DNA of 64,000 nt, taken from the NCBI RefSeq assembly GCF_010993705.1, contig NZ_WOFO01000009.1, positions 124,001 to 188,000 on the forward strand, in the 5' to 3' direction. How positions within the stretch are numbered: position 1 is the stretch's first letter; every line of letters begins with the position of its first letter. Below are positions 28,603 to 63,594 of this stretch, in pieces. The position numbers were made by a program, and so were the translations under genes. The notes under the pieces are model-generated. The model ran no database searches. It saw only the letters and a list, made by a program, of their open reading frames with translations, and was not told the DNA's origin. The DNA is from Cyclobacterium sp. SYSU L10401 (GTDB lineage: Bacteria; Bacteroidota; Bacteroidia; Cytophagales; Cyclobacteriaceae).

Positions 28603-28603
28603 A

Positions 28604-38456: not shown

Positions 38457-38579
38457 TTAGTAATCTCCTATTTTCTGGTTAATCAATCTTGGGCAGGCCG
38501 GTCATTGACTCGAAGCCTAGATGGCTTATCAGCTCCAAAGAGATTGATGACCGGAAGAAAGGAGGTAAATTAAGTGTAA
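38457..38579 (-). repeat. structured 5'-leader repeat, copy 2 (shorter)
   Basis: A ~123-bp direct repeat of 31667-31845. It shares TAGTAATCTCCT, GGTTAATCAATCT, GGTCATTGACTC.AAGCCT.GATGGC, TATCAG, CCAAAGAGATTGATG, CCGGAAGAAAGGAG and AAATTAAGTGTA. Relative to copy 1 it lacks ~55 bp, including most of the left hairpin arm and the loop. It lies in the same orientation on the other side of the restriction operon. Confidence 0.7.
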
Positions 38580-38790
38580 GTAAAATTGAATTAAACTATT
38601 ACGAACTTAAGAAGTAAAAATATTTTGGCGAAACCCGATTGGTGCTATATTTGTAACTGACAAAACTACCTTCGTTGACCAACGTTTACATTAAAGAGAT
38701 CTCAAACATTTTTAACAACTCGTAAAAATGCTAGAATGATGATAGACTTATTCAGAACTGGGGAAAATTTGGCATAAAAGCATAACAATT
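38580..38790. other. spacer upstream of the ABC three-component operon
   Basis: About 210 bp, AT-rich, with no gene visible; presumably holds the promoter of the SMEK gene. I see no repeat in it. Confidence 0.3.
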
Positions 38791-39756: not shown

Positions 39757-39759
39757 ATC

Positions 39760-39996
39760 ATGAGTAATGTTTTTTTAAAAGAAGAAAATATTGAAACTTC
39801 GCCACCATTTGTAGGAAAAATAATTATTAAATTTATTTCTAAAAAGAAAATAAAAAAAGTAAGTATTTTTGATCTAGCCGATACATTTAAAAATGACCCA
39901 TGGTTTTCAGTAACGCATCTATATATGGGCATAATTTTTTTATACACATTGGGGTTAATTGAATTTAAAGAACCATATATAGAGCTTAATGCTTAA
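39760..39996 (+). CDS. ABC three-component system middle component
   Basis: A 78-residue protein with features of the small winged-helix-like middle components: SIFDLADTFKNDPWFSVTHLYMGIIFLYTLGLIEF, a short bundle that probably bridges the effector and the ATPase. It starts 3 bp after the SMEK gene and overlaps the ATPase start by 8 bp. The call depends strongly on context; I believe it fits middle component 6, but cannot confirm the subfamily. Confidence 0.7.
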   Translation: MSNVFLKEENIETSPPFVGKIIIKFISKKKIKKVSIFDLADTFKNDPWFSVTHLYMGIIFLYTLGLIEFKEPYIELNA

Positions 39997-43494: not shown

Positions 43495-46400
43495 TTGATT
43501 GGCCGATTGCCTATCGCCGGAGTGATGCTATCGCTAACAGGGATACTGTTAGCGGGGACAGCCATGGCGGGTCCGTCAGGCGGAATGGTCGTGGACGGTG
43601 CAGCGGATATTGTGGGTCAAGGCAGCAATGCCGTTACAGTAAATCAGCATTCCAATCGTGCGGTGATTAACTGGCAAAGCTTTGACACTCAATCCCACCA
43701 GCGTGTTGAGTTTGTGCAACCCGATGTAAACTCGATTGTATTAAACCGTATTATATCAGGATCCCCAACGCAGTTTGATGGGTCGTTGACGGCAAATGGC
43801 CGTGTGGTTGTGATGAACCCCAACGGTGTTGTGTTTGGTCAATCGGCACAGGTTGATGTGGGGGGGTTGATTGCCACATCCTCTCATGTATCAACAGACA
43901 GCTTTATGAACGATGCGCAGATCCGTTTTGAGGCGGGGGGTGATCCGGCAGGATCGATTGTTAATCATGGAACGATTACGGTGCGAGACGCCGGCTTGGT
44001 TGGTTTTGTGGCCCCTCATGTTGAGAACAAGGGAACGATTACGGCGCGTATGGGCACGGTGCATCTGGCCTCAGGGGACCGTTTTACGTTTGACCTGTAT
44101 GGTGATGGGTTGGTTGAGATTGCCGCGAGTGATGCGATCAATGCCCAGCTTGTTAAGAACAGCGGTACCATTAAGGCGGATGGTGGTGTGGTGCAATTAG
44201 AAGCCGCATCGGCCAAGACGATGGTTGATGGGTTGGTCAGTAATACGGGTGTGATCGAAGCCAAATCCGTTCATGAGAAGAACGGTGTGATTATTTTAAG
44301 TGGTGACCAGGGGACCACCTCGGTGTCCGGGACAGTCGACGCATCCGGTAAGGGTGCATCTGAAACGGGTGGCCGGATTGAGGTGACGGGTAAGGCGATA
44401 AACCTGGCCAGTGCCCGGATAGACGCCTCTGGCAGTGAGGACGGTGGCACCATTCGCATAGGGGGTGGGTATCAAGGTGGTGAAGACATACCCCAGGCGG
44501 ATACGACAACAGTGGACGCAGAGACAACGATTACGGCGGATGCCATCACCAATGGTGATGGTGGCAGCATTGTGGTGTGGTCAAACGAGTTGACGGATAT
44601 ATCGGCAACACTATCGGCAAAGGGTGGATTACAATCCGGAGATGGGGGGATGATTGAGACGTCGAGTAAGGGCCGTGCGACCTTCCAAGATGCAATCAGT
44701 ATAGATACCTCGGCCCCTAATGGTGAGACGGGTCTGTGGTATATCGACCCTGAGGATTTTACCATTGCGGATGTTGGTGGTGATATCACACCGGTTGTGT
44801 TATCGGGCCAGTTGGGGTCGAATAACGTGACGATTGAAACGGCGGATACGGGGTCTGATGCGGGTGATATCGTTGTGGAAGATGCGTTAAGCTGGGGCAG
44901 TGATCGGACACTGATCTTAAATGCGCATCGTGATATCGATATAAATGCCAGCATTAACAATACGACTGGTGGGTCATTGGTATTGCGCTCTGACAAGGCG
45001 GGATCTGGGGCTGGGACGGTGAGCTTTAATGGCTCGGGCTCAGTCACCATGACGGGTGGTGGTCGAACGGATATATATTATAACCCGAGTGCGTATGATA
45101 CCCCGACGGATTACAGTACAAACATTACGGGCGATAGCACGGCTTGGATGTTGGTGCATGATGTTACGCAACTGCAAGCGATCAATACAAACAATACCAC
45201 GCGTGCAGGCAGCTATGCGTTAAGCGGTGATATTGATGCCTCCGATACCGTCAATTGGAACTCAGGCGCAGGGTTTGTGCCGATTGGGGATAGCTTAAAC
45301 AATTTCACCGGGCAGTTTGACGGGCAAAACCATATCATTAGTGAATTATACATTAATCGGCCGACGGAAAACGGTGTTGGATTGTTTGGGTATACAAGTG
45401 GAGCCACTATCCGCAATGTGGGTTTGGTTAATGTCGATATTACTGGTAACGACCACGTCGGTGGGCTAGTCGGTGAAAATAGAGGCGGTATCATTTATGA
45501 TAGTTACTCCATCGGTGATATAATGGGATTAAACTCATGGGTTGGAGGTCTGGTTGGGTTAAACAGGGACAATAGCACAATCAGTAGAAGTTTTGCTGAC
45601 GGAAATGTTTTAGGATTAGGTTCACGAATTGGGGGGCTTGTCGGCGCAAATTATAGGGACAGCACGATCAGTAATAGTTACGCCATTGGAATCGTTGAGG
45701 GTAATAGTAGTCGCGTTGGTGGGTTGGTAGGGTATAATAATAACTCTAGTACAGTTAATCAGAGCTATGCCACCGGACCCATAACAGGAACTAGTGATGT
45801 CGGTGGCTTGGTGGGGCGGAATGCAAGTGATTCAACTGTCACCAACAGCTATTGGGATATGGACACCTCCGGCCAAGCCACGAGCGCAGGGGGCTCAGGG
45901 GCAGTTGGTCTGACCAGTGCACAAGCTCGCCAGCAAGCATCGTACGGTGGCTGGAATTTTGCCGATGACTGGTACATGATTGAGGATGAAACCCGTCCGT
46001 TTGGCCGCTGGGAGTATTCCACCAATATTGGCAATGCGCATCAATTACAATTAATGGCGATGGATTTAAATGCGGATTATACATTGGTCCGTAATATTGA
46101 ATTAGGGGATGCCCTGGACCCGGTGGGTGGAGACTATACCGGCATGTGGACCGATAGTGGGTTTGTGCCGATTGGTAATAGCTCAAACAACTTTACCGGC
46201 GTGTTTGACGGACAAAATAATGTTATTACGGACCTGACCATTAACCGGCCGGGAACCAATAATAATGTAGGACTATTTGGAGTTGCTAATAATGCTATCA
46301 TTACTCGTTTAGGATTAGAAAATATTGAGGTAATTGGACGATGGGATGTAGGTGCTCTGATTGGCACAAGTCGAAATAATACAGAACTAAGCTATAGTTA

Positions 46401-48942
46401 TGCTATTGGAAATGTATATGGCGCCACTCGAAGGCATGGTGGTTTGGTGGGCGTGAATATAGGTTCCATTATTTATAGTTATGCAGATGTCAATGTAACG
46501 GGTGGCGAAAGAGAGGTAGGAGGCTTGGTCGGTGATAATATCGGAACTATCAGCCATTCCTATGCGACAGGAAACGTATCAGGTACTTATGGGTCTACTG
46601 GCGGTCTAGTGGGTCGGAATCGTGATTTGGGAGGAGGTTTTTTTGGTGAAGTTCATTATAGCTGGTCTTCAGGTAATGTAAGTGTCTCATCAGGTGGAGG
46701 TGGCGGTTTGATCGGAACAAATAGTGGTGGTGCTACCGTCACCAACAGTTATTGGGATATGGACACCTCTGGTCAGGCGACCAGCGCCGGGGGCGCAGGC
46801 GTTGTTGGCTTAACCAGCGCACAAGCCCGCCAGCAAGCATCGTATGTTGGGTGGGACTTTACCAATGATTGGTACATGATTGAGAATGAAACCCGTCCGT
46901 TTGGCGGCTGGGAATATTCCACCAATATCGGCAATGCGCATCAATTACAATTAATGGTGATGGACTTGGGTGCAGATTATACATTAGTGCGTGATATTGA
47001 CCTGGGCGATGCATTGGCTCCGGTGGGTGGAGATTATACCGGCATGTGGACCGATAGTGGGTTTGTGCCGATTGGGAATAGCTCAAACAATTTTACCGGC
47101 GAGTTTGACGGACAAAATCATGTTATTACGGACCTGACCATTAACCGGCCATCAACGAATAATATTGGACTATTTGGATATACAACTGGCTCCCTTATCC
47201 ACAATGTAGGTCTTGTTGATATCGACATTACAGGTTTTAACGATGTTAGCGGCCTGGTGGGCACCCATCAAAACGGCAGCACAACAAGTAATAGTTATGC
47301 CACTGGTGTAGTCACGGGTCGTGCCGTTGTTGGTGGCCTAGTGGGGCTTAATAGAAGTAGCTCAATCAGTGAAAGTTATTTTACTGGTGATGTGTCTGGA
47401 TCAAATTCACGAATTGGCGGACTAGTTGGACGAAATATTATTGGCGGTACAATCAGTGAGAGTTATGCAACTGGCACGGTTACAGGGATCGAATGGATCG
47501 GGGGGTTGGTAGGTCTAAATGGGGCCAATAGCACAATTAATGAAAGTTATGCAACTAGCGATGTCACAGGTAGTGATATTGTAGGTGGCCTGGTTGGTTA
47601 TAATAACAATAGTAGCACAATCAATGAGAGTTATTCCAGCGGAGCAGTCTCAGGTGGCGGTAATGTCGGTGGTTTAATTGGTTTAAATAATGACAGCACC
47701 ATCACCGACAGCTATTGGAATGTTGAGACATCTGGTCAAGCCACAAGTGCGGGCGGAGCAGGTGCCATTGGCCTCACCACGGCCGAGATGCAGGAAATGG
47801 ATAGCTTTGCCGGATGGGATATCGATGATGTCGGTGGTACGGATAGCGTATGGCGTATCTATGAAGGCCAAACATCGCCCTTGCTGCGTCATTTTATGAC
47901 CCCATTAACAGTTACCGCTAATAACGACAGTACTCTTTATGATGGGATTGCGTATACGGGGGGTAACGGTGTTGTCTGGTCCGGCTTTAAAGATGGTGAT
48001 GATGTTAACGATTTGAGTGGTGTTTTAAGCTATGGCGGAACGGCACAAAATGTCGTGAATGCAGGGAACTATGGCATTACACCAATGGGGGTGTATTCCG
48101 GGCAACAGGGCTATGATATTACAACTCAATCAGGGGCATTAACGATAACCCCTCGTGATATTACGGTGACGGCGGACGCGGTCAGCCGTGTTTACGGTGA
48201 TGCGAACCCTGCATTGAATTATACGGTTGGCGGCGATGGCCTTGTAAGTGGTGATACATTGTCTGGATCATTAGCAACGACCGCTACCGTGACCAGTGAT
48301 ATTGGCAATTACGCAATCACACAGGGTGATCTAAACAATGCTAATTATACGATCACCTCTTATACTGGGAATGATTTAACGATTACGACCCGTGACTTAG
48401 TGATTAGAGCGCAGGATAAGACCAAAATTAAGGGGCAAGCTAATCCTGTTCTAACCTATGCTATTGGCGGTGATGGTCTGGCCAATGGAGATACGCCGCT
48501 TAGCGGAAGTTTGACAACAGTTGCTCTTATCTCCTCTGAGATTGGTAGTTATGCGATCACACAAGGGTCCGTTGCACTCAGTGATACGAACTATACCATG
48601 GCATTTGTTCCAGGGTCATTCAGTATTGTGCCAGTACCAGATATGCCGGCTAGTATAGAGGCAGGTCGATATAATGCCTTACCAAGCCCTGTTGTGCCAT
48701 TGCAGCAGTATTCACCAGGTAATAGCAGCGGATCTTCTTCCAGTGGCATTGGGACCGATGGTCCGATGTACAATGTGGATATCCTGAATGGTGGGATTAA
48801 TCTGGATAATAATAGTTTTGATCTAAATCTGATTTCTCCTTCAGCATCGGGCGATACTGATACAGTCACCAATCAAACCAGCAATGCGTATACAATCTAT
48901 TTTACCAAGCCGCTTTTACAGCAACTAGGGTATTTAAAATAG
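43495..48942 (+). CDS. filamentous-haemagglutinin-like surface protein 1 (TPS domain, GLUG and MBG repeats)
   Basis: A 1815-residue secreted protein. It has a signal peptide (LPIAGVMLSLTGILLAGTAMAG), then a TPS/haemagglutination-activity domain (~30-280) with QHSNRAVINWQSFD and the NPNGVVFG motif. About a thousand residues of GLUG repeats (GGLVGxNxxSxIxxSYATGxVxG) follow, in three blocks separated by a repeated SYWDMDTSGQATSAGG...GNAHQLQLM segment, then three MBG-like domains. No TpsB transporter is nearby. The in-frame start is TTG at 43495. The upstream ATG pair is disconnected by a one-base longer G tract, unlike copy 2. Probably an adhesin of proteobacterial origin. Confidence 0.85.
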   Translation: MIGRLPIAGVMLSLTGILLAGTAMAGPSGGMVVDGAADIVGQGSNAVTVNQHSNRAVINWQSFDTQSHQRVEFVQPDVNSIVLNRIISGSPTQFDGSLTANGRVVVMNPNGVVFGQSAQVDVGGLIATSSHVSTDSFMNDAQIRFEAGGDPAGSIVNHGTITVRDAGLVGFVAPHVENKGTITARMGTVHLASGDRFTFDLYGDGLVEIAASDAINAQLVKNSGTIKADGGVVQLEAASAKTMVDGLVSNTGVIEAKSVHEKNGVIILSGDQGTTSVSGTVDASGKGASETGGRIEVTGKAINLASARIDASGSEDGGTIRIGGGYQGGEDIPQADTTTVDAETTITADAITNGDGGSIVVWSNELTDISATLSAKGGLQSGDGGMIETSSKGRATFQDAISIDTSAPNGETGLWYIDPEDFTIADVGGDITPVVLSGQLGSNNVTIETADTGSDAGDIVVEDALSWGSDRTLILNAHRDIDINASINNTTGGSLVLRSDKAGSGAGTVSFNGSGSVTMTGGGRTDIYYNPSAYDTPTDYSTNITGDSTAWMLVHDVTQLQAINTNNTTRAGSYALSGDIDASDTVNWNSGAGFVPIGDSLNNFTGQFDGQNHIISELYINRPTENGVGLFGYTSGATIRNVGLVNVDITGNDHVGGLVGENRGGIIYDSYSIGDIMGLNSWVGGLVGLNRDNSTISRSFADGNVLGLGSRIGGLVGANYRDSTISNSYAIGIVEGNSSRVGGLVGYNNNSSTVNQSYATGPITGTSDVGGLVGRNASDSTVTNSYWDMDTSGQATSAGGSGAVGLTSAQARQQASYGGWNFADDWYMIEDETRPFGRWEYSTNIGNAHQLQLMAMDLNADYTLVRNIELGDALDPVGGDYTGMWTDSGFVPIGNSSNNFTGVFDGQNNVITDLTINRPGTNNNVGLFGVANNAIITRLGLENIEVIGRWDVGALIGTSRNNTELSYSYAIGNVYGATRRHGGLVGVNIGSIIYSYADVNVTGGEREVGGLVGDNIGTISHSYATGNVSGTYGSTGGLVGRNRDLGGGFFGEVHYSWSSGNVSVSSGGGGGLIGTNSGGATVTNSYWDMDTSGQATSAGGAGVVGLTSAQARQQASYVGWDFTNDWYMIENETRPFGGWEYSTNIGNAHQLQLMVMDLGADYTLVRDIDLGDALAPVGGDYTGMWTDSGFVPIGNSSNNFTGEFDGQNHVITDLTINRPSTNNIGLFGYTTGSLIHNVGLVDIDITGFNDVSGLVGTHQNGSTTSNSYATGVVTGRAVVGGLVGLNRSSSISESYFTGDVSGSNSRIGGLVGRNIIGGTISESYATGTVTGIEWIGGLVGLNGANSTINESYATSDVTGSDIVGGLVGYNNNSSTINESYSSGAVSGGGNVGGLIGLNNDSTITDSYWNVETSGQATSAGGAGAIGLTTAEMQEMDSFAGWDIDDVGGTDSVWRIYEGQTSPLLRHFMTPLTVTANNDSTLYDGIAYTGGNGVVWSGFKDGDDVNDLSGVLSYGGTAQNVVNAGNYGITPMGVYSGQQGYDITTQSGALTITPRDITVTADAVSRVYGDANPALNYTVGGDGLVSGDTLSGSLATTATVTSDIGNYAITQGDLNNANYTITSYTGNDLTITTRDLVIRAQDKTKIKGQANPVLTYAIGGDGLANGDTPLSGSLTTVALISSEIGSYAITQGSVALSDTNYTMAFVPGSFSIVPVPDMPASIEAGRYNALPSPVVPLQQYSPGNSSGSSSSGIGTDGPMYNVDILNGGINLDNNSFDLNLISPSASGDTDTVTNQTSNAYTIYFTKPLLQQLGYLK
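45840..47150 (+). repeat. internal ~400-bp repeat within haemagglutinin 1
   Basis: The stretch about 45840-46250 (from the SYWDMDTSG segment through the FVPIGNSSNNFTG segment) recurs nearly identically at 46740-47150. It separates GLUG blocks, so the gene has grown by internal duplication. Third, shorter relatives occur before and after. Confidence 0.75.
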
Positions 48943-48968: not shown

Positions 48969-50084
48969 TTAGCGTTCCTCGGAATAACCTAAATTAAGCG
49001 CATATTTTGTGCTTCGACCACCTCCAAACGGAAGAAAAATATTCTTTTCGACCAAATCCTGTAAATCTCTTGTAGCAGTGGCTTTTGAAGTTTGGGTGAC
49101 GGCAATATATTTCTTGGCACTCATACCTCCTTCAAAGCCCTTTGGTCCTTCTTCCAACATACGACGCACGACTTTTAGCTGCCGTTCATTCAAGGTACTT
49201 GCAAACCGATCAAAGAACTGAGTTTTTTTGAGCGTAAAATCAATTAAGGATTCAGCCTGATCCTGCGCCTCAATTGCCATCGTCAGAAAATAAGTAATCC
49301 AAGGTGTGATCTCATTGGACTGCTGTGCTTTTTGTAAAGCAGCATAATAATCTTTTTTCTTGGCCTCTATGGCCCGTGATAGGCTTAAAAGAATTGGCCG
49401 TTTCACGTATTGAGATAATGCTTTTTCCGATATGGCACGGCCGATACGGCCATTCCCATCCTCAAACGGGTGAATGGTTTCAAAATACAAATGAGCAATC
49501 GCCGAGCGTACCACCGGTTTTTTGATTTCACTTTTGCCACCAGGTCCCGTTTCATTAAACCAGCTTATAAAACCTGTCATTTCTTGTGGGACAATTCTTG
49601 ATGGTGGGGCCTCATAATGAATTTTCTCTTTTCCCATTGCCCCAGATACGACCTGCATTGGCTCTTCATGACTGCGCCAATCACCAACAGTGATGCCTTT
49701 GCTGCCTTTCATGATCATCTGGTGCCAAGAGAACAGCTTTTCTTGTCTTAGCTCCTCTTCAAAAGTGTTGCGTACATCCACCATAAGCTCAGCGGCGCCT
49801 TGTGCCCGCAAATCACTCACCTGTTGATGGCTTAAGCCAAGATTATTACGAATAGAGGACATAACATCCTGGCGGCTCAAATATTCGCCTTCAATTTCTG
49901 AGGTTTTAATGGCCTCAGCTACCATTAAATCGATAATAGCTTCATTTTGAGTTTTTTCTGGCAATCCCCTTAATAGGCCGCTGACACGCCCTACTTTTTC
50001 AGAAAACTTAAAGAGCAAAGGCTCTATTTCTGATAAATCATACTGAAAGTCAGGCCAGTTTTTTTGTTGCCAGTTATACGTCAT
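48969..50084 (-). CDS. Fic-domain protein (DUF4172-Fic-wHTH), class II autoinhibited
   Basis: A 371-residue protein from the ATG at 50084 (the frame is open 17 codons further). The N-terminal DUF4172-like region includes the inhibitory motif TSEIEG (61-66; consensus S/TxxxEG/N). The Fic catalytic motif is HPFEDGNGRIGR (205-216) with all residues intact. The C-terminal winged helix (ITV.QTSKATATRDLQDLVEKNIF) probably binds DNA. Fic enzymes transfer AMP to target hydroxyls. Two identical-spacing dyads overlap and precede its start codon, suggesting autoregulation. It sits between the two haemagglutinin genes, in the opposite direction. Confidence 0.87.
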   Translation of the reverse strand: MTYNWQQKNWPDFQYDLSEIEPLLFKFSEKVGRVSGLLRGLPEKTQNEAIIDLMVAEAIKTSEIEGEYLSRQDVMSSIRNNLGLSHQQVSDLRAQGAAELMVDVRNTFEEELRQEKLFSWHQMIMKGSKGITVGDWRSHEEPMQVVSGAMGKEKIHYEAPPSRIVPQEMTGFISWFNETGPGGKSEIKKPVVRSAIAHLYFETIHPFEDGNGRIGRAISEKALSQYVKRPILLSLSRAIEAKKKDYYAALQKAQQSNEITPWITYFLTMAIEAQDQAESLIDFTLKKTQFFDRFASTLNERQLKVVRRMLEEGPKGFEGGMSAKKYIAVTQTSKATATRDLQDLVEKNIFLPFGGGRSTKYALNLGYSEER

Positions 50085-50156
50085 GAGCCGATTACCTCTT
50101 TTATTCGGCTCAAATATAATAAATAAATGAGCCAATTGTCAATGTTATTCGGCTCA
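50084..50156 (-). promoter_or_regulatory. two operator dyads at the fic start
   Basis: TGAGCCGAT-N8-TTATTCGGCTCA (50084-50112) overlaps the fic start codon and TGAGCCAAT-N8-TTATTCGGCTCA (50128-50156) lies upstream, 44 bp apart with the same spacing. The half-sites TGAGCC and GGCTCA are inverted. This is the look of a repressor operator pair, most simply for the Fic protein's own winged helix. Confidence 0.75.
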
Positions 50157-50232: not shown

Positions 50233-50337
50233 ATAGCATTAAGGTATTGATCTTTCATTGTATTGTTCGGTGATATATTAACTTTTTTTAGACATAATGG
50301 ATGTAAGGATTAAGGTGTGTGTGGGGTTGTTCACGCT
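50233..50337 (+). promoter_or_regulatory. duplicated promoter/leader of haemagglutinin gene 2
   Basis: This matches 43366-43472 upstream of copy 1 with few substitutions and one GT unit less. The presence of the same leader upstream of both genes shows that promoter and gene were duplicated together. Confidence 0.6.
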
Positions 50338-53300
50338 ATGATGACGGGGGATATTAAGTTGATTGGCCGATTGCCTATCGCCGGAGTGATGCTATCGCTA
50401 ACAGGGATATTGTTAGCGGGAACAGCTATGGCGGGTCCGTCAGGCGGAACTGTTGTGGACGGTGCAGCGGATATTGCAGGCCAAGGCAGCAATGCCGTTA
50501 CAGTAAATCAGCATTCCAATCGGGCGGTGATTAACTGGCAAAGATTTGACACTCAATCCCACCAGCGTGTTGAGTTTGTGCAACCCGATGTAAACTCGAT
50601 TGTATTAAACCGTATTATATCAGGATCCCCAACCCAGTTTGACGGGTCGTTAAGCGCGAATGGCCGTGTGGTTGTGATGAACCCCAACGGTGTTGTGTTT
50701 GGTCAAACGGCACAGGTTGATGTGGGGAGTTTGATTGCCACATCCTCTCATGTATCAACAGACAGCTTTATGAACGATGCGCGGATCCGCTTTGAGGCGG
50801 GGGGTGATCCGGCAGGATCGATTGTTAATCATGGAACGATTACGGTGCGAGACGCCGGCTTGGTTGGTTTTGTGGCCCCTCATGTTGAGAATACGGGAAC
50901 GATTACGGCGCGGTTAGGCAAGGTTCATCTGGCATCAGGGGACCGTTTTACGTTTGACCTGTATGGTGATGGGTTGGTTGAGATTGCCGCGAGCGATGCG
51001 ATCAATGCGCAGCTTGTTAAGAACAACGGTGTTATCGAGGCGGATGGCGGTGTGGTGCAATTAGAAGCCGCATCGGCCAAGACGATGGTTGATGGGTTGG
51101 TCAGTAATACGGGTGTGATCGAAGCCAAATCCGTTCATGAGAAGAACGGTGTGATTATTTTAAGTGGTGACGCGGCAACCACCTCGGTCTCAGGCACAGT
51201 CGACGCATCCGGTAAGGGTGCATCTGAAACGGGTGGCCGGATTGAGGTGACGGGTAAGGAGATAAACCTGGCTAGCGCCCGGTTAGACGCCTCTGGCAGT
51301 GAAGGCGGTGGCACCATTCGTATTGGTGGTGGCTATCAAGGTGGAGAAGGTATACACCAGGCGGATACCACAACAGTGGACGCCGATACAACTATTACGG
51401 CGGATGCCATCACCAATGGTGATGGTGGCAGCATTGTGGTGTGGTCAAACGAGTTGACGGATATATCGGCAACACTATCGGCAAAGGGTGGATTACAATC
51501 CGGAGATGGGGGGATGATTGAGACGTCAAGTAAGGGCCGTGCGACCTTCCAAGATGCAATCAGTATAGATACCTCGGCCCCTAATGGTGAGACGGGTCTG
51601 TGGTATATCGACCCTGAGGATTTTACCATTGCAGATGTTGGTGGTGATATCACACCGGTTGTGTTATCGGGTCAGTTGGGGTCGAACAATGTGACGATTG
51701 AAACGGCGGATACGGGGTCTGATCCAGGTGATATCGTTGTGGAAGATGCGTTAAGCTGGGGCAGTGATCGGACACTGATCTTAAATGCGCATCGTGATAT
51801 AGATATTAACGCCAGCATTAACAATACGACTGGTGGGTCATTGGTATTGCGCTCTGACAAGGCGGGATCTGGGACTGGGACGGTGAGCTTTAATGGCTCG
51901 GGCTCAGTTGCGATGACGGGTGGTGGTCGAACGGATCTTTATTATAACCCAAGTGCGTATTCGACACCGACGGATTACAGTGCAAACATTACGGGCGATA
52001 GCACGGCTTGGATGCTGGTGCATGATGTTAATCAGTTGCAAGCGATCAATACAAACAATACCACGCGTGCGGGCAGCTATGCGTTAAGCGGTGATATTGA
52101 TGCCTCCGATACCGTCAACTGGGACACCGGCGCAGGATTTGTGCCGATTGGGAATTTTAACGATCGCTTTACCGGTCAGTTTGATGGCCAAAATCACATC
52201 ATTAGTGACTTGTATATTGATAGATCTGATAATGTTGGCTTATTTGGTCTTGCGGAAAATTCCATCATCCGCAATGTTGGTTTGGTTGATGTCGGCATTA
52301 CTGGAGATACGCATGTCGGTGGCTTGGCTGGGCGTAACGTAGGAAATAGCGTAATAAGTAATAGTTATGCTACGGGAAATATTACCGGAAACAATAATAA
52401 TATTGGCGGATTGGTGGGAGTTAATTCTAATAGTACCATCAGTTCAAGTTACTCAACCGCTAGTGTTACAGGAAATAGCTCTGTTGGCGGTCTAGTTGGG
52501 TATAATAATCAAGGTAGCACAGTCAGTGAAAGCTACGCTACTGGAGATGTTATGGGAACTGGCGATTATGTTGGCGGTCTAGTCGGGTATAACCTAAACA
52601 ACGGCATAATCGATTTTAGCTATGCGACTGGCAATGTTATGGGAAGTAGGCATTTCGGCGGTCTAGTTGGATATAATAATTCCAGCATCATTAGTGAAAG
52701 CTACGCGACCGGCACAGTTACAGGAAATGGGGATTATGTCGGCGGGTTGGTTGGCTATAACGTAAACAGTACAATCAATGAAAGCTATTCCAAAGGCATG
52801 GTTACTGGAAATTCTATGGTAGGGGGGCTAGTTGGGCGCAATCAAGGTGGTAGCACAATTAACCAAAGTTACGCAACTGGTACCATTACAGGAAATGGTG
52901 ATCGTGTTGGTGGTTTGGTGGGAGTAAATAACAACAGCACAATCAACCACAGTTATTCCGTAGGAACAGTAGCAGGATTGAGCAATAACATTGTTGGTGG
53001 ACTTGTGGGATACAATGAGAACAACGGCACCGTCAGCTATAGTTATGCAACAGGTGCTGTTTCAGGAGCTAATTATATCGGCGGTCTTGTCGGTAGAAGT
53101 TTTAACAGTGTAATTCAACAAACTTATGCGACAGGAGCCGTAACAGGTTCGGGTAGTAACGTTGGCGGACTGGTAGGTACCCATCAAAACGGTGGCATGA
53201 TCAGCTACAGTTATGCAACTGGTTCTGTTTCAAAAGCCGGTAGTGGCGGTGGTCTTGTCGGACAAATATTGCATTACGGAGGTGTCACTAACAGCTATTG

Positions 53301-54042
53301 GGATATGGACACGTCGGGCATGGCAACCAGTGCTGGAGGTGCGGGCGCTACTGGCCTCACCACGGCTGAGATGCAGGAGATGGACAGCTTTTCCGAATGG
53401 GATATCGATGATGCCGGTGGCACTGGTACTGCGTGGCGTATCTATGAAGGCCAGACTTCGCCCTTGCTACGTCATTTTATGACCCCTTTGACAGTTACCG
53501 CTAATAACGCCAGTGCTATCTATGATGGGACTGCTTATATGGGCGGTAATGGTGTTGTCTGGTCCGGTTTTAAAGACGGTGGGGATGCAACGGATTTGAG
53601 TGGTGTTTTAAGTTATGGCGGAACGGCGCAAAATGCGGTGAATACAGGGAACTATTCCATTACACCAATGGGTGTGTATTCCGGTCAACAGGGCTATGAT
53701 ATTACAACTCAATCAGGAACATTAACGATTGTAAAACCGGATATGCCGGCCAGCACAGAAGCAGGTCGTTATAGTACCGTAACTAGCCCGGTTGCTCCAT
53801 TGCAGCAGTATTCACCAGGTAGTAGTGGTGTATCTTCTTCCAATGGAATTAGTACCGATGCCCCGATGTATAATGTGGATATCCTGAATGGTGGGATTAA
53901 TCTGGATAATAATAGTTTTGACCTAAATCTGATTTCTCCCTCAGCATCGGGCGATACTGATACAGTCACCAATCTAACCAGCAACGCGTATACAATCTAT
54001 TTTACCAAGCCGCTTTTACAGCAACTAGGGTATTTAAAATAG
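50338..54042 (+). CDS. filamentous-haemagglutinin-like surface protein 2
   Basis: A ~1234-residue paralogue of the protein at 43495. From the ATG-ATG at 50338 the leader reads MMTGDIKLIGRLPIAGV; here the G tract has five G residues, which keeps the ATG in frame. The first ~600 residues (signal peptide, TPS domain with NPNGVVFG, beta-helix) are almost identical to copy 1. The GLUG-repeat centre is different in sequence and number. The C-terminal ~250 residues match again but only one MBG-like domain is kept, two having been lost. The last ~55 residues are almost identical. No TpsB partner. Confidence 0.86.
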   Translation: MMTGDIKLIGRLPIAGVMLSLTGILLAGTAMAGPSGGTVVDGAADIAGQGSNAVTVNQHSNRAVINWQRFDTQSHQRVEFVQPDVNSIVLNRIISGSPTQFDGSLSANGRVVVMNPNGVVFGQTAQVDVGSLIATSSHVSTDSFMNDARIRFEAGGDPAGSIVNHGTITVRDAGLVGFVAPHVENTGTITARLGKVHLASGDRFTFDLYGDGLVEIAASDAINAQLVKNNGVIEADGGVVQLEAASAKTMVDGLVSNTGVIEAKSVHEKNGVIILSGDAATTSVSGTVDASGKGASETGGRIEVTGKEINLASARLDASGSEGGGTIRIGGGYQGGEGIHQADTTTVDADTTITADAITNGDGGSIVVWSNELTDISATLSAKGGLQSGDGGMIETSSKGRATFQDAISIDTSAPNGETGLWYIDPEDFTIADVGGDITPVVLSGQLGSNNVTIETADTGSDPGDIVVEDALSWGSDRTLILNAHRDIDINASINNTTGGSLVLRSDKAGSGTGTVSFNGSGSVAMTGGGRTDLYYNPSAYSTPTDYSANITGDSTAWMLVHDVNQLQAINTNNTTRAGSYALSGDIDASDTVNWDTGAGFVPIGNFNDRFTGQFDGQNHIISDLYIDRSDNVGLFGLAENSIIRNVGLVDVGITGDTHVGGLAGRNVGNSVISNSYATGNITGNNNNIGGLVGVNSNSTISSSYSTASVTGNSSVGGLVGYNNQGSTVSESYATGDVMGTGDYVGGLVGYNLNNGIIDFSYATGNVMGSRHFGGLVGYNNSSIISESYATGTVTGNGDYVGGLVGYNVNSTINESYSKGMVTGNSMVGGLVGRNQGGSTINQSYATGTITGNGDRVGGLVGVNNNSTINHSYSVGTVAGLSNNIVGGLVGYNENNGTVSYSYATGAVSGANYIGGLVGRSFNSVIQQTYATGAVTGSGSNVGGLVGTHQNGGMISYSYATGSVSKAGSGGGLVGQILHYGGVTNSYWDMDTSGMATSAGGAGATGLTTAEMQEMDSFSEWDIDDAGGTGTAWRIYEGQTSPLLRHFMTPLTVTANNASAIYDGTAYMGGNGVVWSGFKDGGDATDLSGVLSYGGTAQNAVNTGNYSITPMGVYSGQQGYDITTQSGTLTIVKPDMPASTEAGRYSTVTSPVAPLQQYSPGSSGVSSSNGISTDAPMYNVDILNGGINLDNNSFDLNLISPSASGDTDTVTNLTSNAYTIYFTKPLLQQLGYLK

Positions 54043-54527: not shown

Positions 54528-55610
54528 ATGGCAAATAAAGCAAAAGAAATTATTGTTCCTGATCAAGGCGTTTTTAGAATAGTCTTTCTTTATGTTGGAC
54601 AAGGGGACTCAGCAATACTTACAATACCGGATGGTAGTGATTTTCGCTATGTATTGTTAGACAATAATATTGATATAAGTGCAGGTGGTATTAATACAGT
54701 AGAATTACTCAAAGATCTCCTTGACGATAAAAAAATCATCTTTATGAACACTCATCCTCATAAAGATCATACAGAAGGCATAGAAGAAATTCATAACGAG
54801 GTTGGGGTTGAGGAAGTATGGCATTCTGGGCATGTTCCGGGAAAAAAGCATGACGATGCTTACCAGGAAATGAGGCGTGTCATTAAAGCAATTGGTTCTG
54901 ATAATGAATATAAGTTCTTTGGAACAAACGATCTGAATAAAGTAAGAGCGTCAGATGGGGAGACCCAAGTAATTAAAAAAATTGGAGATATTGATTTCCA
55001 TGTTTTATCGCCTGCAGAATACTTATGTGAAGAAATAGCAGGTGACGACGCTGAGAAGAGATATCGTCGTATTCATGAACATTGTGCCGTCATTAAGTTA
55101 ACTTATGGAAATCCTGCTAGAAATATACTAATGACCGGCGATGCAGATAGGGTTGCCTGGGAAGATCATATACTGAATTACCATAAAGATTCAGTTCAGG
55201 CTGAGGTTCTAAGTGCAGTTCATCATGGTTCTCGTACCTTTTTTAAGTTTCCAAATAACGACGACGATATTTATGAAACTCATATTGAAACCATTTCCCC
55301 CAATTATCTAATAGTAAGTGCTCCGACCCAAGAAGAAAGCAGTCATGATCATCCACATGATGATGCAATGGAGCTATATAGAAAACATTTGGAGGAAGAT
55401 AATATTTTTCATCTAGGTAACAAGCGAGAATCTATGATAGTAGACATTTATCCAAATGGAAGTTATGTAATCGATTCTGACAATGGTGAACTAGCTACTG
55501 AGTATGGTTTTGATGATCATTCCGGTAGTGATTCAGAGGGAAGTAAAAAAGCTGCTGCAGCGATAATAGGCGTACGAACCAGTACTTTAGATAAAAAACC
55601 AATGGGATGA
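54528..55610 (+). CDS. MBL-fold hydrolase (ComEC-like)
   Basis: A 360-residue metallo-beta-lactamase-fold protein of the ComEC/Rec2-like group: FLYVGQGDSAILTIPDG (residues ~16-32), the metal motif HPHKDH (76-81), LMTGDAD and AVHHGSRTFF later. These enzymes hydrolyse phosphoesters, nucleic acid or cyclic nucleotides in the wider family; the substrate here is unknown. It ends 1 bp before the E2-E1-JAB gene, so they form an operon. MBL proteins next to ubiquitin-like enzymes have been noted in predicted conflict operons. Confidence 0.82.
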   Translation: MANKAKEIIVPDQGVFRIVFLYVGQGDSAILTIPDGSDFRYVLLDNNIDISAGGINTVELLKDLLDDKKIIFMNTHPHKDHTEGIEEIHNEVGVEEVWHSGHVPGKKHDDAYQEMRRVIKAIGSDNEYKFFGTNDLNKVRASDGETQVIKKIGDIDFHVLSPAEYLCEEIAGDDAEKRYRRIHEHCAVIKLTYGNPARNILMTGDADRVAWEDHILNYHKDSVQAEVLSAVHHGSRTFFKFPNNDDDIYETHIETISPNYLIVSAPTQEESSHDHPHDDAMELYRKHLEEDNIFHLGNKRESMIVDIYPNGSYVIDSDNGELATEYGFDDHSGSDSEGSKKAAAAIIGVRTSTLDKKPMG

Positions 55611-55611
55611 T

Positions 55612-57960
55612 ATGAGTGAATGGTTTGAACTTCATCCTCAGATCTTAGAGAGAGAATCTAGGCAGCTTAGTAGTAATAGTCATTATGAAGAATTAGCTCA
55701 AAGACGGGATGTATTGTTTGTTTCAACCGGAACAATTAAAGTTAGAGCAAATGGACAGACACAACGCTACCCTGTAGCAATTGTTTACCCTAAGGCCACT
55801 CCATATGCCTTACCATGGGTTTATCTAATTGAAGCAGTATTGACTGAAGCAGAATTAGATAATTTAGCTTCATTGACTCATCATAAGGTATCAAAATTCT
55901 TATCATCTAAGGCAAAGTATTATTATCGACGACATCAAAACGAAGATGGAAGCTTATGTGTCTTGGAACAGGATAATCTCGACCAAATTGGCGCAGAGAT
56001 ATTCGATGCAAATACCGTTTTAAAAAGGGTTGGTAAATACTTAGCTGGCTTCACTACAAATCACTTCCCTCCTGAAGGAGCTGAGGTAGAACTATTCTCA
56101 CATTATCCCAATAAGGCCGGAGTCCATGTATTATTAACTGATAGTTTTTATATGGATAATGGTAAAAAGGGTGTATTTTACTTAAACTATATGTATGAGG
56201 TTCCGAAGAGTGCTTCTCGGAAAAACTTACCTAACGTATACTTTGGTGCCTGCTTAGTAAATCAAACTGCTTCAGGCATACAAACGGATAATAGTTTAAC
56301 ACAATTACCCTTCATGCCTGATGGGCTTAAGAGCAGGGAGGAAATAGCTCATAATCAAACAAGGTTAAATGACCTTATCAAAGATGAAGAGTTAATAGAA
56401 GGTCATTGGTGGCACCTAACAGCCGAACCAGATGTGTTTAAAAATACTCAAGAGCTCATCGTTGCACTGGGTCACGGAGATATAGACAAGGGGGTGGCTG
56501 AAGTCGTAAAAAGCTTTTGGCCCAAATTAAAAGCGCAAGAGCAATCTATTTTTATAGGTCTCCGCTTTCTAAATCGACGAGGCGAGCTGGATTGGGTTAT
56601 TCTTTTACTGAAGAAAATTTCTAGCAATAATCACCCCCTGATCATCGGAGAACCTAATGTCACTGAGGTATTAGGAGATTACCAAGTGACAGCTGCTTAT
56701 TCTGAGGCTCTAACCGAAGAAAAACATCATTTACGAAATCAGGGACGAATAGATCGTAATATCGTTAAAGACAGGATACTAACAGTTATCGGGTGTGGAG
56801 CATTAGGTAGCGAAACGGCTGATATCATGGCAAAAGGGGGAATAGGTACAGTTTGTTTAGTAGATAACCAAATAATGTTTGCCCATAACAGTATTAGGCA
56901 TCTAGCTAGTTGCCGTCAGGCCAACCAACGAAAAGTAGATGCTGTAGCAACGATATTACGTGAACACAATCCTTATATTAATATCCTACCAATTGGAAAA
57001 AATATATTATTAGAGGACATTCCTGAATATTTCCCTGAAAATGGTATTGGTATTTCATCTATTGCTGATGACAATACAGAAAGTTATTTGAATGAACAGG
57101 CTTTATTAAATAAGCGTACAGTATTTTATGTTAGAGCGCTACGTGGAGGTAAATCAGCTCGGATTTTTAGAGTTATTCCTGGTCAGGATGCTTGCTTTCA
57201 TTGTTTAAGTATTTACAGAAGCGAGGGACATGAAAGCTTTATAGATATTCCAGAAGACCATGAATTACCCACAATTCGCAATGAATGTAATAATCCTATA
57301 CGGCCAAGTAGTGCTGCGGATCTTAAACTTATTTCTGCACTCGCAGGAAAGACATTGTTAGATTATTTGCAATCACCGAACAATCAAGCAGTCAACCATT
57401 GGGTTTGGGCAAGTGATTCATTTAGCGGCATTAACATCACAAGCAGCACCCCTTCTGTTCTAGAAGCACGAAAACTCGCTCCTCACCCACAATGCCAATA
57501 TTGCCAAGGGTTAAACCCAATTAAGATAATACTAAGTCAAGAGGCATTAGAATATATGCAAAACTTAGTATTAGCTACTCCAGGTGTTGAAACCGGCGGT
57601 GTCTTAATAGGTAATTTTGATGTAAAAAATAATTCTGTTCAAATCTTGCACGCCTCAGGTCCAGGGCCAAATTCTCAGAGAACAGCTTCTAGATTTGAGC
57701 GAGATGTAGAGTATTGCCAAAATTTTGTAAACCAACACGCAACAAAACAACTTTTATATTTAGGGGAATGGCATAGCCATCCACATAGCAACAATTCTCC
57801 TAGTGGTACCGATATAGAAAGCCTTTCTTCTATTTCGGAACAAAAAGAATATTTAACCACTCGTCCCGTAATGATAATTTTTTCTAGAAATGGGGATTAT
57901 TCTTGTACAGTTCATCCTGTTAACCAACCCCATTACCCTGTCAAACCAACAGTTGAATAA
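55612..57960 (+). CDS. fused E2-E1-JAB ubiquitin-like conjugation enzyme
   Basis: A 782-residue three-domain protein. Residues ~1-160 are an E2-like (prokaryotic UBC) domain with the HxxxxGxxC pattern RHQNEDGSLCVLE (His108, Cys116). Residues ~370-640 are a ThiF/E1 adenylation domain: IGCGALGSE (~393-401), then HNSIRH, DDNTESYLNEQAL, and zinc pairs CFHC (528-531) and CQYC (628-631). Residues ~650-775 are a JAB/JAMM deubiquitinase-like domain with ETGGVLIG and the metal motif EWHSHPHSNNSPSGTD (His721, His723). No ubiquitin-like gene or cGAS-like cyclase is adjacent. Related to Cap2/Cap3 of CBASS but fused and paired with an MBL hydrolase. Confidence 0.85.
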   Translation: MSEWFELHPQILERESRQLSSNSHYEELAQRRDVLFVSTGTIKVRANGQTQRYPVAIVYPKATPYALPWVYLIEAVLTEAELDNLASLTHHKVSKFLSSKAKYYYRRHQNEDGSLCVLEQDNLDQIGAEIFDANTVLKRVGKYLAGFTTNHFPPEGAEVELFSHYPNKAGVHVLLTDSFYMDNGKKGVFYLNYMYEVPKSASRKNLPNVYFGACLVNQTASGIQTDNSLTQLPFMPDGLKSREEIAHNQTRLNDLIKDEELIEGHWWHLTAEPDVFKNTQELIVALGHGDIDKGVAEVVKSFWPKLKAQEQSIFIGLRFLNRRGELDWVILLLKKISSNNHPLIIGEPNVTEVLGDYQVTAAYSEALTEEKHHLRNQGRIDRNIVKDRILTVIGCGALGSETADIMAKGGIGTVCLVDNQIMFAHNSIRHLASCRQANQRKVDAVATILREHNPYINILPIGKNILLEDIPEYFPENGIGISSIADDNTESYLNEQALLNKRTVFYVRALRGGKSARIFRVIPGQDACFHCLSIYRSEGHESFIDIPEDHELPTIRNECNNPIRPSSAADLKLISALAGKTLLDYLQSPNNQAVNHWVWASDSFSGINITSSTPSVLEARKLAPHPQCQYCQGLNPIKIILSQEALEYMQNLVLATPGVETGGVLIGNFDVKNNSVQILHASGPGPNSQRTASRFERDVEYCQNFVNQHATKQLLYLGEWHSHPHSNNSPSGTDIESLSSISEQKEYLTTRPVMIIFSRNGDYSCTVHPVNQPHYPVKPTVE

Positions 57961-57970
57961 CATAAATTTT

Positions 57971-58729
57971 TTATCTATCGGATTTATTAGCCGGTAGATA
58001 GTCACAACTATCAATTAATGCCTGTGCATAGCGATAAGCTGCTTCTTTTACCCATTGTTTGTTAATGAGAAATATCCAAAAGGATAATAAAATGAAGAGA
58101 AATAGAGTTACAATTACCTCAGAAACCGATGTAAATTCAGAATATGAGAGACTAGTCAATAGTTTATAAAAAACCATAAGTATACTGAGTATTAAGATAA
58201 CAATTCCCCAGATCTTCAGTCCCCACAAGTTTCTTCTGAAGCCATAACTGCAATTTTCAATAAAGAGTAAATTAAATTTGTCAGTGTCTCTAGTGTTATT
58301 CCTCAAATATGAAACACATAGTTCATATTTTTGGTCGGCAAATACTGGGTCATTTTTCTCCTCCTCTTTAGTAGGTAATTTGAAAAGCTCTGAATCAGAA
58401 GAAAGTAATTGTTCTAACTTTTTATGAGTTCGTTCAAGCATTATGGGGTTTCGAGCATTTTCATGTCTTAACAATTTTGTTGTTGGAGTACCGCCCCAAA
58501 CTTCGAATAATCGTTTTTGTTTCTTTGCACCAGCGTCTCTTACGAACTGTGAAATTAACATAGCTGCTACTATCCAAACACCAGCACTTCCCGCGATAGG
58601 TTTCCATTTTGCAAGTTCATCAGGAAACCAAATAAAAATGGCTAAACCTATAGGTAAAGCTGCTATCAAGAAAGGATAAATTCTTGCTTCTCTTATATAC
58701 TTATTAGGGATCAAATCACTTAAATTCAT
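57971..58729 (-). CDS. membrane protein convergent with the E2-E1-JAB gene
   Basis: A 252-residue protein with two N-terminal transmembrane segments (about 16-33 and 43-62), a ~110-residue hydrophilic region starting KKQKRLFEVWGGTPTTKLLRHENA, and two C-terminal transmembrane segments (about 170-190 and 205-225). Layout recalls four-helix membrane effectors of nucleotide-signalling systems, but I recognise no family. It is convergent with the MBL/E2-E1-JAB operon (10-bp gap) and could be the membrane effector or an unrelated gene. Confidence 0.65.
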   Translation of the reverse strand: MNLSDLIPNKYIREARIYPFLIAALPIGLAIFIWFPDELAKWKPIAGSAGVWIVAAMLISQFVRDAGAKKQKRLFEVWGGTPTTKLLRHENARNPIMLERTHKKLEQLLSSDSELFKLPTKEEEKNDPVFADQKYELCVSYLRNNTRDTDKFNLLFIENCSYGFRRNLWGLKIWGIVILILSILMVFYKLLTSLSYSEFTSVSEVIVTLFLFILLSFWIFLINKQWVKEAAYRYAQALIDSCDYLPANKSDR

Positions 58730-61648: not shown

Positions 61649-62980
61649 TTAAAAATTAATTACGCTATCCAAAGCATCATCGGCTTCTTTGTGAATGAAA
61701 TTTGCCTGATAATTCAGGGTGGTTTTCAAATCACTGTGTCGGTAAAGTTTTTGCAGCATAAGCGGGTGGATTTTATCACCTGCAATATTTCCGAAGCTAT
61801 GTCGGGCGATATGGTTTGATAAGTTTTTTTCTATTCCGCAGCTGGCAGCAATACGTTTTAAATATTTATTGAAAAGCTTTGTGGCATTTCTGGTTTTGAT
61901 AAAAATATCCTGTGCATTGGCCGGATCAACATCTCGAAGGAAAGGGAACACATAACCATTATTCTGCTTACTTTCTTTTTTGTATCTATCCAAAATGACA
62001 GCGGCTTTATCAGGAATTTTTAGGCTAAGGGGTTTTTCGTTTTTATTCATGACATAGAACAACCTTCCATCTTGGAAATCTGACCATTTTAATTTCACAA
62101 CATCGGAAATTCTCATACCTGCAAAGTAAAAGGACACCAACCAAACTTTATGGGTATGCCACATTGATGTATCTGGTTCCACGTCCAACGCCTCTATTAA
62201 TTCCACCTCTTTTTCAGTCAGGCCTATTTTATGACCTGATCCAATCCGGATTTTTTCTTTTTCGCCAGCAAAGGGATAGTATTTTTGATCCACAATCCCA
62301 TCCTTAATAGCAATATTAAACAGGGTGCGGATAAAGATAAGCTGGTTTGTCAGGGTGCGGTTTTTTTGTCCGAGGTAGGAAATTGAAAAGGTTTTGAATT
62401 TATTGATCCATGCGGCATTGATATCTTCAAAATACAGGGATTTATCTTTTTTAAATTCCTTTACCGCATCCATTAGGGTGTAATCGGATTTCCTGCCCTT
62501 ACTGACGCGTTCCTTTCTTTTTTGGGTCAATACACCCATGGATTCCTTTTTATCCAATGAGGGTTTAAATTTGACGAATTCAGAAATGTTGTACAGGATG
62601 GATAGCTCAGGTTTTGCCACCGAATATTTCCCTTGTTCATATTTGCTCATGATCCGATCCGCAGCGACCGCAAAAAAGGATTCTTGACGGCTTTGGCCTT
62701 TGACTTTTCTTTTGAGATCTTTGGTGGTGACCTGATCACTGGCTTCAAACACCGCATCATTGGCTTCTGTGAGTTTTTTCATCAAAAAATTATTGAGCCG
62801 AACAGAATTGGGATAGGAGCGTTTTACTTTACCGGCTACATCGTCCCAATCTTTAGCGAGGATATATTGCCCCAAAAAGGTATAGCTAGTTTTGTAATCC
62901 TTGCTGATCCTAAGAGCGAGTGGGGCGGTTCCGTCTTTTCTTTCCTTGTTTTTGCGCCGTACAATTTTGATGGAGGCCAT
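61649..62980 (-). CDS. tyrosine recombinase (Bacteroidota element integrase)
   Basis: A 443-residue integrase. The N-terminal ~90 residues form an arm-binding domain (SIKIVRRKNKERKDGTAPLALRISKDYKTSYTFLGQYI...), followed by a SAM-like core-binding domain and the catalytic domain with Arg in GMRISDVVKLKWSDF, HIARHSFG (HxxR), LYRHSDLKTTLNYQ (His and Tyr). It lies 171 bp from the right attachment site and is the recombinase expected to have inserted the whole element into tRNA-fMet. The paired GGTACAGAAT boxes in front of it are its probable arm sites. Confidence 0.92.
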   Translation of the reverse strand: MASIKIVRRKNKERKDGTAPLALRISKDYKTSYTFLGQYILAKDWDDVAGKVKRSYPNSVRLNNFLMKKLTEANDAVFEASDQVTTKDLKRKVKGQSRQESFFAVAADRIMSKYEQGKYSVAKPELSILYNISEFVKFKPSLDKKESMGVLTQKRKERVSKGRKSDYTLMDAVKEFKKDKSLYFEDINAAWINKFKTFSISYLGQKNRTLTNQLIFIRTLFNIAIKDGIVDQKYYPFAGEKEKIRIGSGHKIGLTEKEVELIEALDVEPDTSMWHTHKVWLVSFYFAGMRISDVVKLKWSDFQDGRLFYVMNKNEKPLSLKIPDKAAVILDRYKKESKQNNGYVFPFLRDVDPANAQDIFIKTRNATKLFNKYLKRIAASCGIEKNLSNHIARHSFGNIAGDKIHPLMLQKLYRHSDLKTTLNYQANFIHKEADDALDSVINF

Positions 62981-63151: not shown

Positions 63152-63196
63152 GGCTCATAACCCAAAGGTCACAGGTTCGAGTCCTGTTCCCGCTAC
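63152..63196 (+). repeat. right attachment site (attR), 45-bp direct repeat
   Basis: A perfect copy of 16839-16883, i.e. the 3' part of the initiator tRNA (GGCTCATAACCC... to ...CCCGCTAC). It is followed by a native-looking terminator, so this side carries the tRNA gene's original downstream sequence. Confidence 0.92.
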
Positions 63197-63203
63197 ATTC
63201 GAA

Positions 63204-63228
63204 GGCACTGGAAACAGTGCCTTTTTTT
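63204..63228 (+). terminator. native tRNA-fMet terminator, displaced
   Basis: GGCACTG-GAAA-CAGTGCC followed by seven T residues. A strong intrinsic terminator 8 bp after the tRNA 3' end; presumably the original terminator of tRNA-fMet before insertion. A second copy lies in the tandem repeat at about 63555-63579. Confidence 0.88.
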
Positions 63229-63242
63229 GTTATTTTAAGGCC

Positions 63243-63491
63243 ATGTTTACCGTATATGCCCTCTATAGTGAAAAATTCGATAAAATCTATATCGGATTTA
63301 CTTCTGATCTTCAAAAACGCCTGATCTCACATAACGAGCTCGGTACAAAGGGATGGACGATTAAGTTTCGGCCATGGAAGCTTATCCATACCGAAACATT
63401 TGAATCCAAGAATGAAGCCATGGATAGAGAAAAATACCTCAAAACAGGGGTTGGAAGAGAATTTATCCGGAATCTCATTCCCGAAAATTAA
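63243..63491 (+). CDS. small GIY-YIG nuclease
   Basis: An 82-residue single-domain GIY-YIG protein: FTVYALYSEKFDKIYIGFTSDLQKRLISHN holds the two-strand motif and the catalytic Arg, and EAMDREKYLKTG the catalytic Glu. The size matches the UPF0213/YhbQ group. It lies 21 bp after the tRNA terminator. In Bacteroidota such genes are, as I recall, present in multiple copies near tRNAs; here the coupling to a tRNA fragment is visible. Confidence 0.85.
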   Translation: MFTVYALYSEKFDKIYIGFTSDLQKRLISHNELGTKGWTIKFRPWKLIHTETFESKNEAMDREKYLKTGVGREFIRNLIPEN

Positions 63492-63594
63492 TACCCTGGG
63501 CTCTTATCCGCCGCGGCGGACACAGGTTCGAGTCCTGTTCCCGCTACATTCGAAGGCACTGGAAACAGTGCCTTTTTTTGTTATTTTTAAGGCC

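Follow-up and report, generated by a model that had tools for sequence, protein, structure and literature searches.

A divergent relative of the 6A-MBL operons in Cyclobacterium, in which the MBL hydrolase is the likely substrate of a fused E2-E1-JAB enzyme

Genes at the Locus

We analyzed a 64,000-nt stretch of contig NZ_WOFO01000009.1 of Cyclobacterium sp. SYSU L10401 (the window), in which positions 54528-58729 hold three genes. An MBL-fold hydrolase of the ComEC type (360 aa; 54528..55610, + strand), which we predict to be the conjugated core protein, is followed by a fused E2-E1-JAB protein of 782 aa resembling Cap2 and Cap3 (55612..57960, + strand), whose ATG lies 1 nt past the MBL stop codon. 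Convergent to this operon is the gene for a four-helix membrane protein of 252 aa (57971..58729, − strand), the predicted effector. The original prediction, made from the DNA alone, had placed these genes at 54528..58729, and the ORFs agree exactly with its description. It had also remarked that a ubiquitin-like gene is missing, in agreement with the ORF listing, which has no ORF of at least 80 aa in the gaps between the three genes or immediately next to them. A search of the genome at E 0.001 recovered the MBL and the triple enzyme once each.

The triple protein is indeed one polypeptide with E2-, E1-, and JAB-like domains. The E1-like (ThiF) domain spans approximately residues 383-600 (56758..57411, + strand; Pfam ThiF at 391-533, 59.1 bits against a cut-off of 28.1), and the JAB/JAMM domain approximately residues 635-768 (57514..57915, + strand; Pfam Prok-JAB at 653-759, 43.1 bits against a cut-off of 25). 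The PADLOC models for JAB and E1-E2 also match the protein, and solved relatives of the E1 domain are MccB, MoeB, UBA5, and Cap2. The E2-like region, approximately residues 1-170 (55612..56121, + strand), is matched weakly in Pfam (UEV, 17.7 bits, below the cut-off of 27), and a slice of 175 residues aligns with the E2 region of canonical 6A proteins with the cysteines aligned (hhalign, E 2e-5, prob 77). The key residues to which the original prediction had pointed are in place and invariant in six aligned sequences (the window and five relatives), namely H108 and C116 of the E2 region, the E1 loop G394, G396, and G399, and the JAMM residues E660/H721/H723/S731/D734; equally invariant is C559, a candidate catalytic cysteine of the E1 domain. 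C528/C531 and C628/C631 have the look of a zinc site, which is presumably their role. As judged from sequence, the E1 and JAB identities are certain, and the E2 assignment, drawn from the conserved H108/C116 and the weak profile matches, is more tentative.

The MBL motif H76-x-H78-x-D80-H81 and residues H183, D205, and H232/H233 are invariant in all 38 aligned MBLs, that of the window included. The core of the protein is modeled confidently, and its best structural match is the MBL domain of ComEC, followed by Pce esterase and RNase J; both the fold and the metal-binding motif that characterize ComEC-type MBL nucleases are present. Residues 331-360 (55518..55607, + strand) have pLDDT below 50, and this C-terminal tail is predicted to be disordered. 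It ends in the motif TSTLDKKPMG (55578-55607, + strand).

Relationship to 6A-MBL Operons

The original prediction held the locus to be an undescribed immune system. This is not borne out, as Iyer et al. (2006) had already described the pairing of an MBL with an E2-E1-JAB protein as operon type 6a, in which the triple E2-E1-JAB protein usually occurs with a specialized MBL (PMC1779556). The nearest curated models, NF058523 and NF058524, bear the NCBIfam name “anti-phage 6A-MBL system”; a literature search for “6A-MBL” and its spelling variants returned no papers. The triple protein scores 167.8 bits with NF058523 (6A-MBL_cap2_3; cut-off 320) and the MBL 40.7 bits with NF058524 (cut-off 220), and since both scores lie below the curated cut-offs, the window locus is a divergent relative rather than an annotated 6A-MBL member. 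Profile comparisons nonetheless connect the two groups, both for the MBLs (hhalign, prob 99.06, E 1.7e-18) and for the triple proteins, whose match is confined to E1-JAB (hhalign, prob 99.85, E 9.8e-31). The window locus belongs to a distinct group spread over several phyla. What remains new is this divergent group, the co-variation of its MBL tails with the partner enzymes, and the membrane family that its loci share, none of which was met in the literature searched; the MBL tail may have been mentioned in print elsewhere.

Matches above the NF058523 cut-off occur in 3 of 395 genomes of the class, the window genome not being among them, and the triple protein is found at E 1e-30 or better in 4 of 390 genomes of the order, including that of the window, so the locus is sporadic. 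Relatives are present in Bacteroidota, Bacillota, Planctomycetota, Acidobacteriota, and other phyla, some of them on plasmids of Hymenobacter and Paenibacillus; in one of these, L063 of H. volaticus, the triple gene is in pieces. A scan of the genome contig collection with the single triple protein gave no match, and a search with the alignment of triple proteins matched 12 viral-contig loci.

A Conserved PMG Motif at the End of the MBL

The starting view, shared by the original prediction, was that the substrate of conjugation is unknown for want of a ubiquitin-like gene. It was abandoned once MBL C-termini were compared, as it leaves out of account the end of the MBL itself, whose sequence behaves as would be expected of a conjugated end. 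In the first seven distinct triple-gene loci, a variable linker toward the end of the MBL gives way to a final LDxKPMG or something near it; an end of this type is missing from the Runella MBL, which has no triple gene. Later loci (44 from genomes, including two repeats, and two from viral contigs) were fetched by patterns in the MBL core outside the tail. Among 35 distinct loci of the window group with a full-length fused E2-E1-JAB gene, 33 have PMG within the last nine residues of the MBL, and the other two have PSG (L073) and EMG (L086). The motif is found in 26 of 28 fused loci when those of the first sighting are excluded, and in none of the 20 other MBLs in the same table (five canonical 6A, three split-enzyme, five E2-only, two divergent, and five outgroup). 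These counts leave out the duplicates (L002/L082, L061/L098, L065/L066) as well as L105, which has frameshifts, and L093, which lies at a contig end (tail KIDQRPMGEK); the triple genes of L063, L072, and L092, which are in pieces, were counted by summed length. Exceptions to the tail pattern are L107 (fused), ending in SSLDDQGAA, L108 (triple-like pieces), ending in RFGE, and L089 (E2-only), ending in SPWCSL.

Across the 35 fused loci, D, P, M, and G have entropies of 0-0.2 bits per position vs. 2.4-3.3 bits in the preceding linker, with D at −3 in 34 loci. In 34 of the 35, the triple gene has its nearest in-frame ATG at −6 to +13 nt relative to the glycine codon (none was found in L090). Overlap with a ribosome-binding site was for this reason considered as the source of the conservation and rejected, as the codons vary freely; all four codons are used for both P and G of the motif, indicating that selection acts on the protein. 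No PMG tail was found among 406 non-MBL ORFs of at least 150 aa in these loci, of which 13 have a looser P-x(1-3)-G tail and 31 a final glycine. Among 2,431 ORFs outside the table, five have PMG in their last 20 residues, three of them duplicate MBLs and two short ORFs. The glycine is the exact end of the MBL in 16 of the 35 fused loci; one to six extra residues follow it in the other 19 (PMG-LTDALV is an example of such an end), for which processing must be assumed. Taken with the comparisons below, this suggests that the conjugated substrate is likely the MBL itself, attached via its C-terminal glycine.

The MBL Tail Changes with the Partner Enzyme

We built a tree of 44 MBL cores from which the last 25 residues had been removed. 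On this tail-less tree, the fused/non-fused label changes at least seven times, with seven changes forced by well-supported branches, and it is scattered much as shuffled labels are (mean 7.5). By tree row, PMG occurs in 33 of 36 fused and none of 8 non-fused MBLs; L107 is in the fused group here, although it is one of the 20 others in the count above, and L103 was labeled split but is actually E2-only, which does not affect the two-group test. Clade inertia as the cause of the tail pattern was rejected, given the seven partner-label changes that the tree demands. Three pairs of sister MBLs illustrate the change of tail with partner: PMG in L102 vs. SPRKFG in L104, PMG in L106 vs. TPARYA in L097, and PMG in L090 vs. 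SKPWLNG in L091.

The alternative tails are themselves patterned. Where the partners are a separate E1-E2 protein and JAB, the MBL ends in PR[KR][FY]G or PARYA (L080, TPRRYG, together with L104 and L097 above), and where an E2-like gene is the only one, in KPWxxG (L067, AKPWQRG, and L091 above); further E2-only tails besides that of L089 are RPYYCG (L103) and KPYCTYGNN (L114). Profile comparison of the E2-only proteins with the triple protein gave no match (prob 0.5), and that with its E2 slice gave E 0.0013 and prob 18; it is therefore by the H...C pattern that these proteins are labeled E2. None of five MBLs that lie beside a membrane gene, with no conjugation gene found in the fetched stretch, has a terminal glycine. 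In canonical 6A MBLs, the last glycine is at most four residues from the end in 15 of 15, often within PRAG or PFKHG, although these tails are glycine-rich and their near-terminal glycine is therefore weaker evidence; L069, in which a transposase gene follows the MBL ORF, was left out of this alignment. A similar dependence is reported for CBASS cyclases: conservation of their C-terminal Gly/Ala is restricted to operons that encode full-length Cap2 and Cap3, and this end forms a thioester with Cap2 and is conjugated, mainly to lysines (PMC10097602).

One E2-only locus, on the Runella plasmid pRUNSL03 (L067, 5995-12981), continues with two further MBL-annotated genes and a serine protease-annotated gene, a set that recalls the MBL-trypsin pairs described in PMC12799240.

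A Membrane Protein Family Associated with the MBL

The membrane protein of the window has four hydrophobic segments and a confident, all-helical model (pLDDT 90.9) that gave no match at E 0.001 in the PDB and viral structure libraries. Iteration of a profile seeded with this sequence only ended at 40 ORFs, which are spread over 37 fetched loci, including the canonical 6A locus L032; 37 of these ORFs have two to four hydrophobic segments. Of the 35 fused loci, 25 have a family member at a distance of at most 2.5 kb, a closeness that is partly by design, since most loci were fetched for the MBL or triple gene. Four further fused loci have a patatin instead, and in six neither was found (L076, L082, L088, L094, L102, L115). 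The gene may be upstream, downstream, or convergent, and is on the opposite strand in the window. The original prediction had seen in this protein the look of an effector, and had proposed its presence beside other copies as a check; the recurrence of a relative at most fused loci, or of a relative or patatin near 29 of the 35, upholds both points, with an effector function that is predicted.

Unbiased samples served as a control. The family occurs in 6 of 295 genomes of the class and 11 of 395 of the phylum, i.e., in 15 distinct genomes, as G000 and G070 are in both samples. The window genome and two 6A genomes (G070 and G174) account for three of these. Among the other 12, the family gene is beside an MBL gene in seven (G328, G352, G305, G848, G902, G881, and G1148, the last also with a 6A-type triple gene approximately 2.5 kb upstream); in five of the 15 (G894, G945, G929, G1000, G1013; E 5e-12 to 9e-7), no MBL was seen within approximately 3 kb. 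Five distinct MBL-membrane pairs with no conjugation gene found are four from these seven genomes, namely L147/L148 (each seen over approximately 7 kb only), L149, L159, and L160, with G1148 (triple gene) and G881 (contig end) left out, and in addition L110. The family profile, the 2.5-kb linkage, and the genome samples led us to reject the membrane gene as a chance neighbor.

Genomic Neighborhood

PADLOC matches at 26-50 kb of the window include Gabija, type IIG restriction, and others. A Gabija pair at 26836-30703 (GajA-like, 799 bits; GajB-like, 520 bits) lies approximately 24 kb from the locus. Consecutive genes at 32254-41710 encode an MmeI-like type IIG restriction enzyme (32.3-35.0 kb), a helicase-like ORF, T5orf172 and SMEK-domain proteins, and the candidate-defense protein PDC-M68B. 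A Fic protein (48969-50135; PADLOC SoFic, 166 bits) is flanked by two large TPS-domain exoproteins with GLUG repeats (43495-48942 and 50317-54042). The defense-type genes of the window and the NCBIfam name fit a defense role of the locus.

On the other side of the locus, a stretch at 63167-63236 is duplicated at 63518-63587, 351 nt apart. By eye, it has the look of a tRNA 3′ end, and ARAGORN called no tRNA at 63167-63587. The duplicated stretch also has a repeated ORF start recalling GIY-YIG proteins. Its 24-base core has exact matches only at these two places in the genome and an integrase gene (61649-62980) is adjacent, so the two copies are possibly integration scars.

Proposed Mechanism and Alternatives

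We consider it moderately likely that the locus is a divergent 6A-MBL relative that operates by the same logic as type II CBASS, the MBL replacing the cyclase and being conjugated via its terminal glycine. The E1 domain would activate the MBL at its C-terminal glycine (KPMG) and hand it to the E2 cysteine, from which the MBL would be attached to other proteins. The JAB domain would undo the conjugation, and may also trim the extension in relatives whose MBL runs past the glycine. Conjugation would switch or place the ComEC-like phosphodiesterase/nuclease. Its activity, we would guess either directly or via a nucleotide product, might then trigger the membrane protein (or the patatin of relatives), which would damage the membrane and stop phage growth.

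The tail could instead be a docking peptide or degradation signal only, with the E1-E2 enzyme conjugating an unlinked host ubiquitin-like protein, for instance to the MBL or to phage proteins. Type 6d and 6e operons are described with a ubiquitin-like gene of their own (PMC1779556), and adenylation of the tail is here a prediction from sequence. Against this, the conserved glycine element stands at the extreme C-terminus after a variable linker, as the Gly/Ala of the CBASS cyclase does, the tail changes with the partner enzyme, and no ORF of at least 80 aa adjoins the three genes or lies among them; we regard a mere signal as quite improbable. It is somewhat less improbable, although still unlikely, that the MBL is the effector on its own, a nuclease unleashed by conjugation on phage or host DNA, with the membrane gene accessory or unrelated. 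Such a role would suit the structural matches to ComEC, Pce, and RNase J, and it has precedents in HamM, which proteolysis unleashes, and in the MBL nucleases of known defense systems (PMC12799240). It accords poorly with the membrane family or patatin at 29 of the 35 fused loci, and with the pairing of the same family with MBLs for which no conjugation gene turned up.

The genome does contain one match to SMODS (PF18144; 42.9 bits), on contig C17, so the statement of the original prediction that there is no nucleotide cyclase holds at the locus and fails genome-wide. That the E2-E1-JAB enzyme acts in trans on this CD-NTase seems to us hardly credible, as the C17 cyclase adjoins an E2-like gene of its own (by the H...C pattern), the MBL and triple enzyme travel together across phyla, and the MBL tail co-varies with the triple enzyme. 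The C17 locus itself (L163; 288-770, 700-1935, and 1941-3077) is CBASS-like, with the SMODS CD-NTase, a 160-aa E2-like protein, and a possible HNH protein, the latter two labeled by eye. Its cyclase ends in KHTNFGAKKDQ; here too, a short extension follows a glycine.

A broader form of the conjugated-MBL reading, which we offer tentatively and with less confidence than the reading itself, is an immune family parallel to CBASS, with a ComEC-like MBL in place of the cyclase. The MBL would be the modifier in E2-only, split, and fused loci alike, and its phosphodiesterase would make or remove a nucleotide that gates the membrane protein or patatin. By analogy, MBL-membrane pairs might then correspond to type I CBASS, and MBLs with E2 only to short type II.

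If the MBL is conjugated as proposed, operon type 6a of 2006 would gain a mechanism, along with a family of candidate effectors, and the conjugation module would seem to have been combined with both cyclases and MBL cores. According to a 2025 review, no ubiquitin-type transferase other than Cap2 is known to activate a protein lacking the beta-grasp fold, and others may await discovery (PMC12355090). The tail evidence nominates the MBL hydrolase as a second such protein, which would likewise be conjugated by an E1-E2 enzyme.

Comparison with Known Systems

The closest known relatives are the canonical 6A-MBL operons, which have the same MBL gene adjoining a triple protein of the same domain order, as well as the near-terminal glycine noted above. 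A patatin or the same membrane family is nearby in 8 of 14 canonical loci scored (L031-L033, L136-L146); among 11 canonical plasmid loci, chosen from 40 listed of 252 matching records, neither gene was found in five. By contrast, the window MBL has HxHxDH where canonical MBLs have HxDxDH, and a PMG tail instead of PRAG, PFKHG, SQG, and similar ends. The neighboring ORFs of at least 80 aa in the window also lack the WYL regulator present in 6 of the 11 canonical plasmid loci. In L139-L142, L145, and L146, a WYL-domain-annotated gene lies beside the canonical operon and recalls CapW of CBASS.

The Bil and Bub systems combine E1, E2, and JAB-type enzymes with a dedicated ubiquitin-like gene, whereas no such gene of at least 80 aa was seen at the window locus. 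Both are described as bacterial defense operons of the ubiquitination type (PMC13373217). The MBL nucleases reported in Hachiman, Avs, Lamassu, and DRT include HamM of Hachiman, which cleaves DNA only once its trypsin-like partner has cut it (Science 2025, PMC12799240). In such MBL nuclease-trypsin pairs and, by our reading, in the window locus, the immune enzyme under regulation is a ComEC-like MBL hydrolase, but regulation is by proteolysis in the former and would be by a ubiquitin-type module in the latter, which in addition has a membrane protein.

The comparison with Cap2 and Cap3 of CBASS, made by the original prediction together with the remark that the cyclase is missing at the locus, was apt. 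Unlike type II CBASS, the locus has an MBL hydrolase as its core enzyme in place of a CD-NTase, and its Cap2- and Cap3-like parts are fused. The two nevertheless have in common an E2-E1 enzyme and a JAB, a core enzyme with a glycine conserved at or near its C-terminus, and an interchangeable membrane or phospholipase effector, which at the MBL loci is a predicted one.
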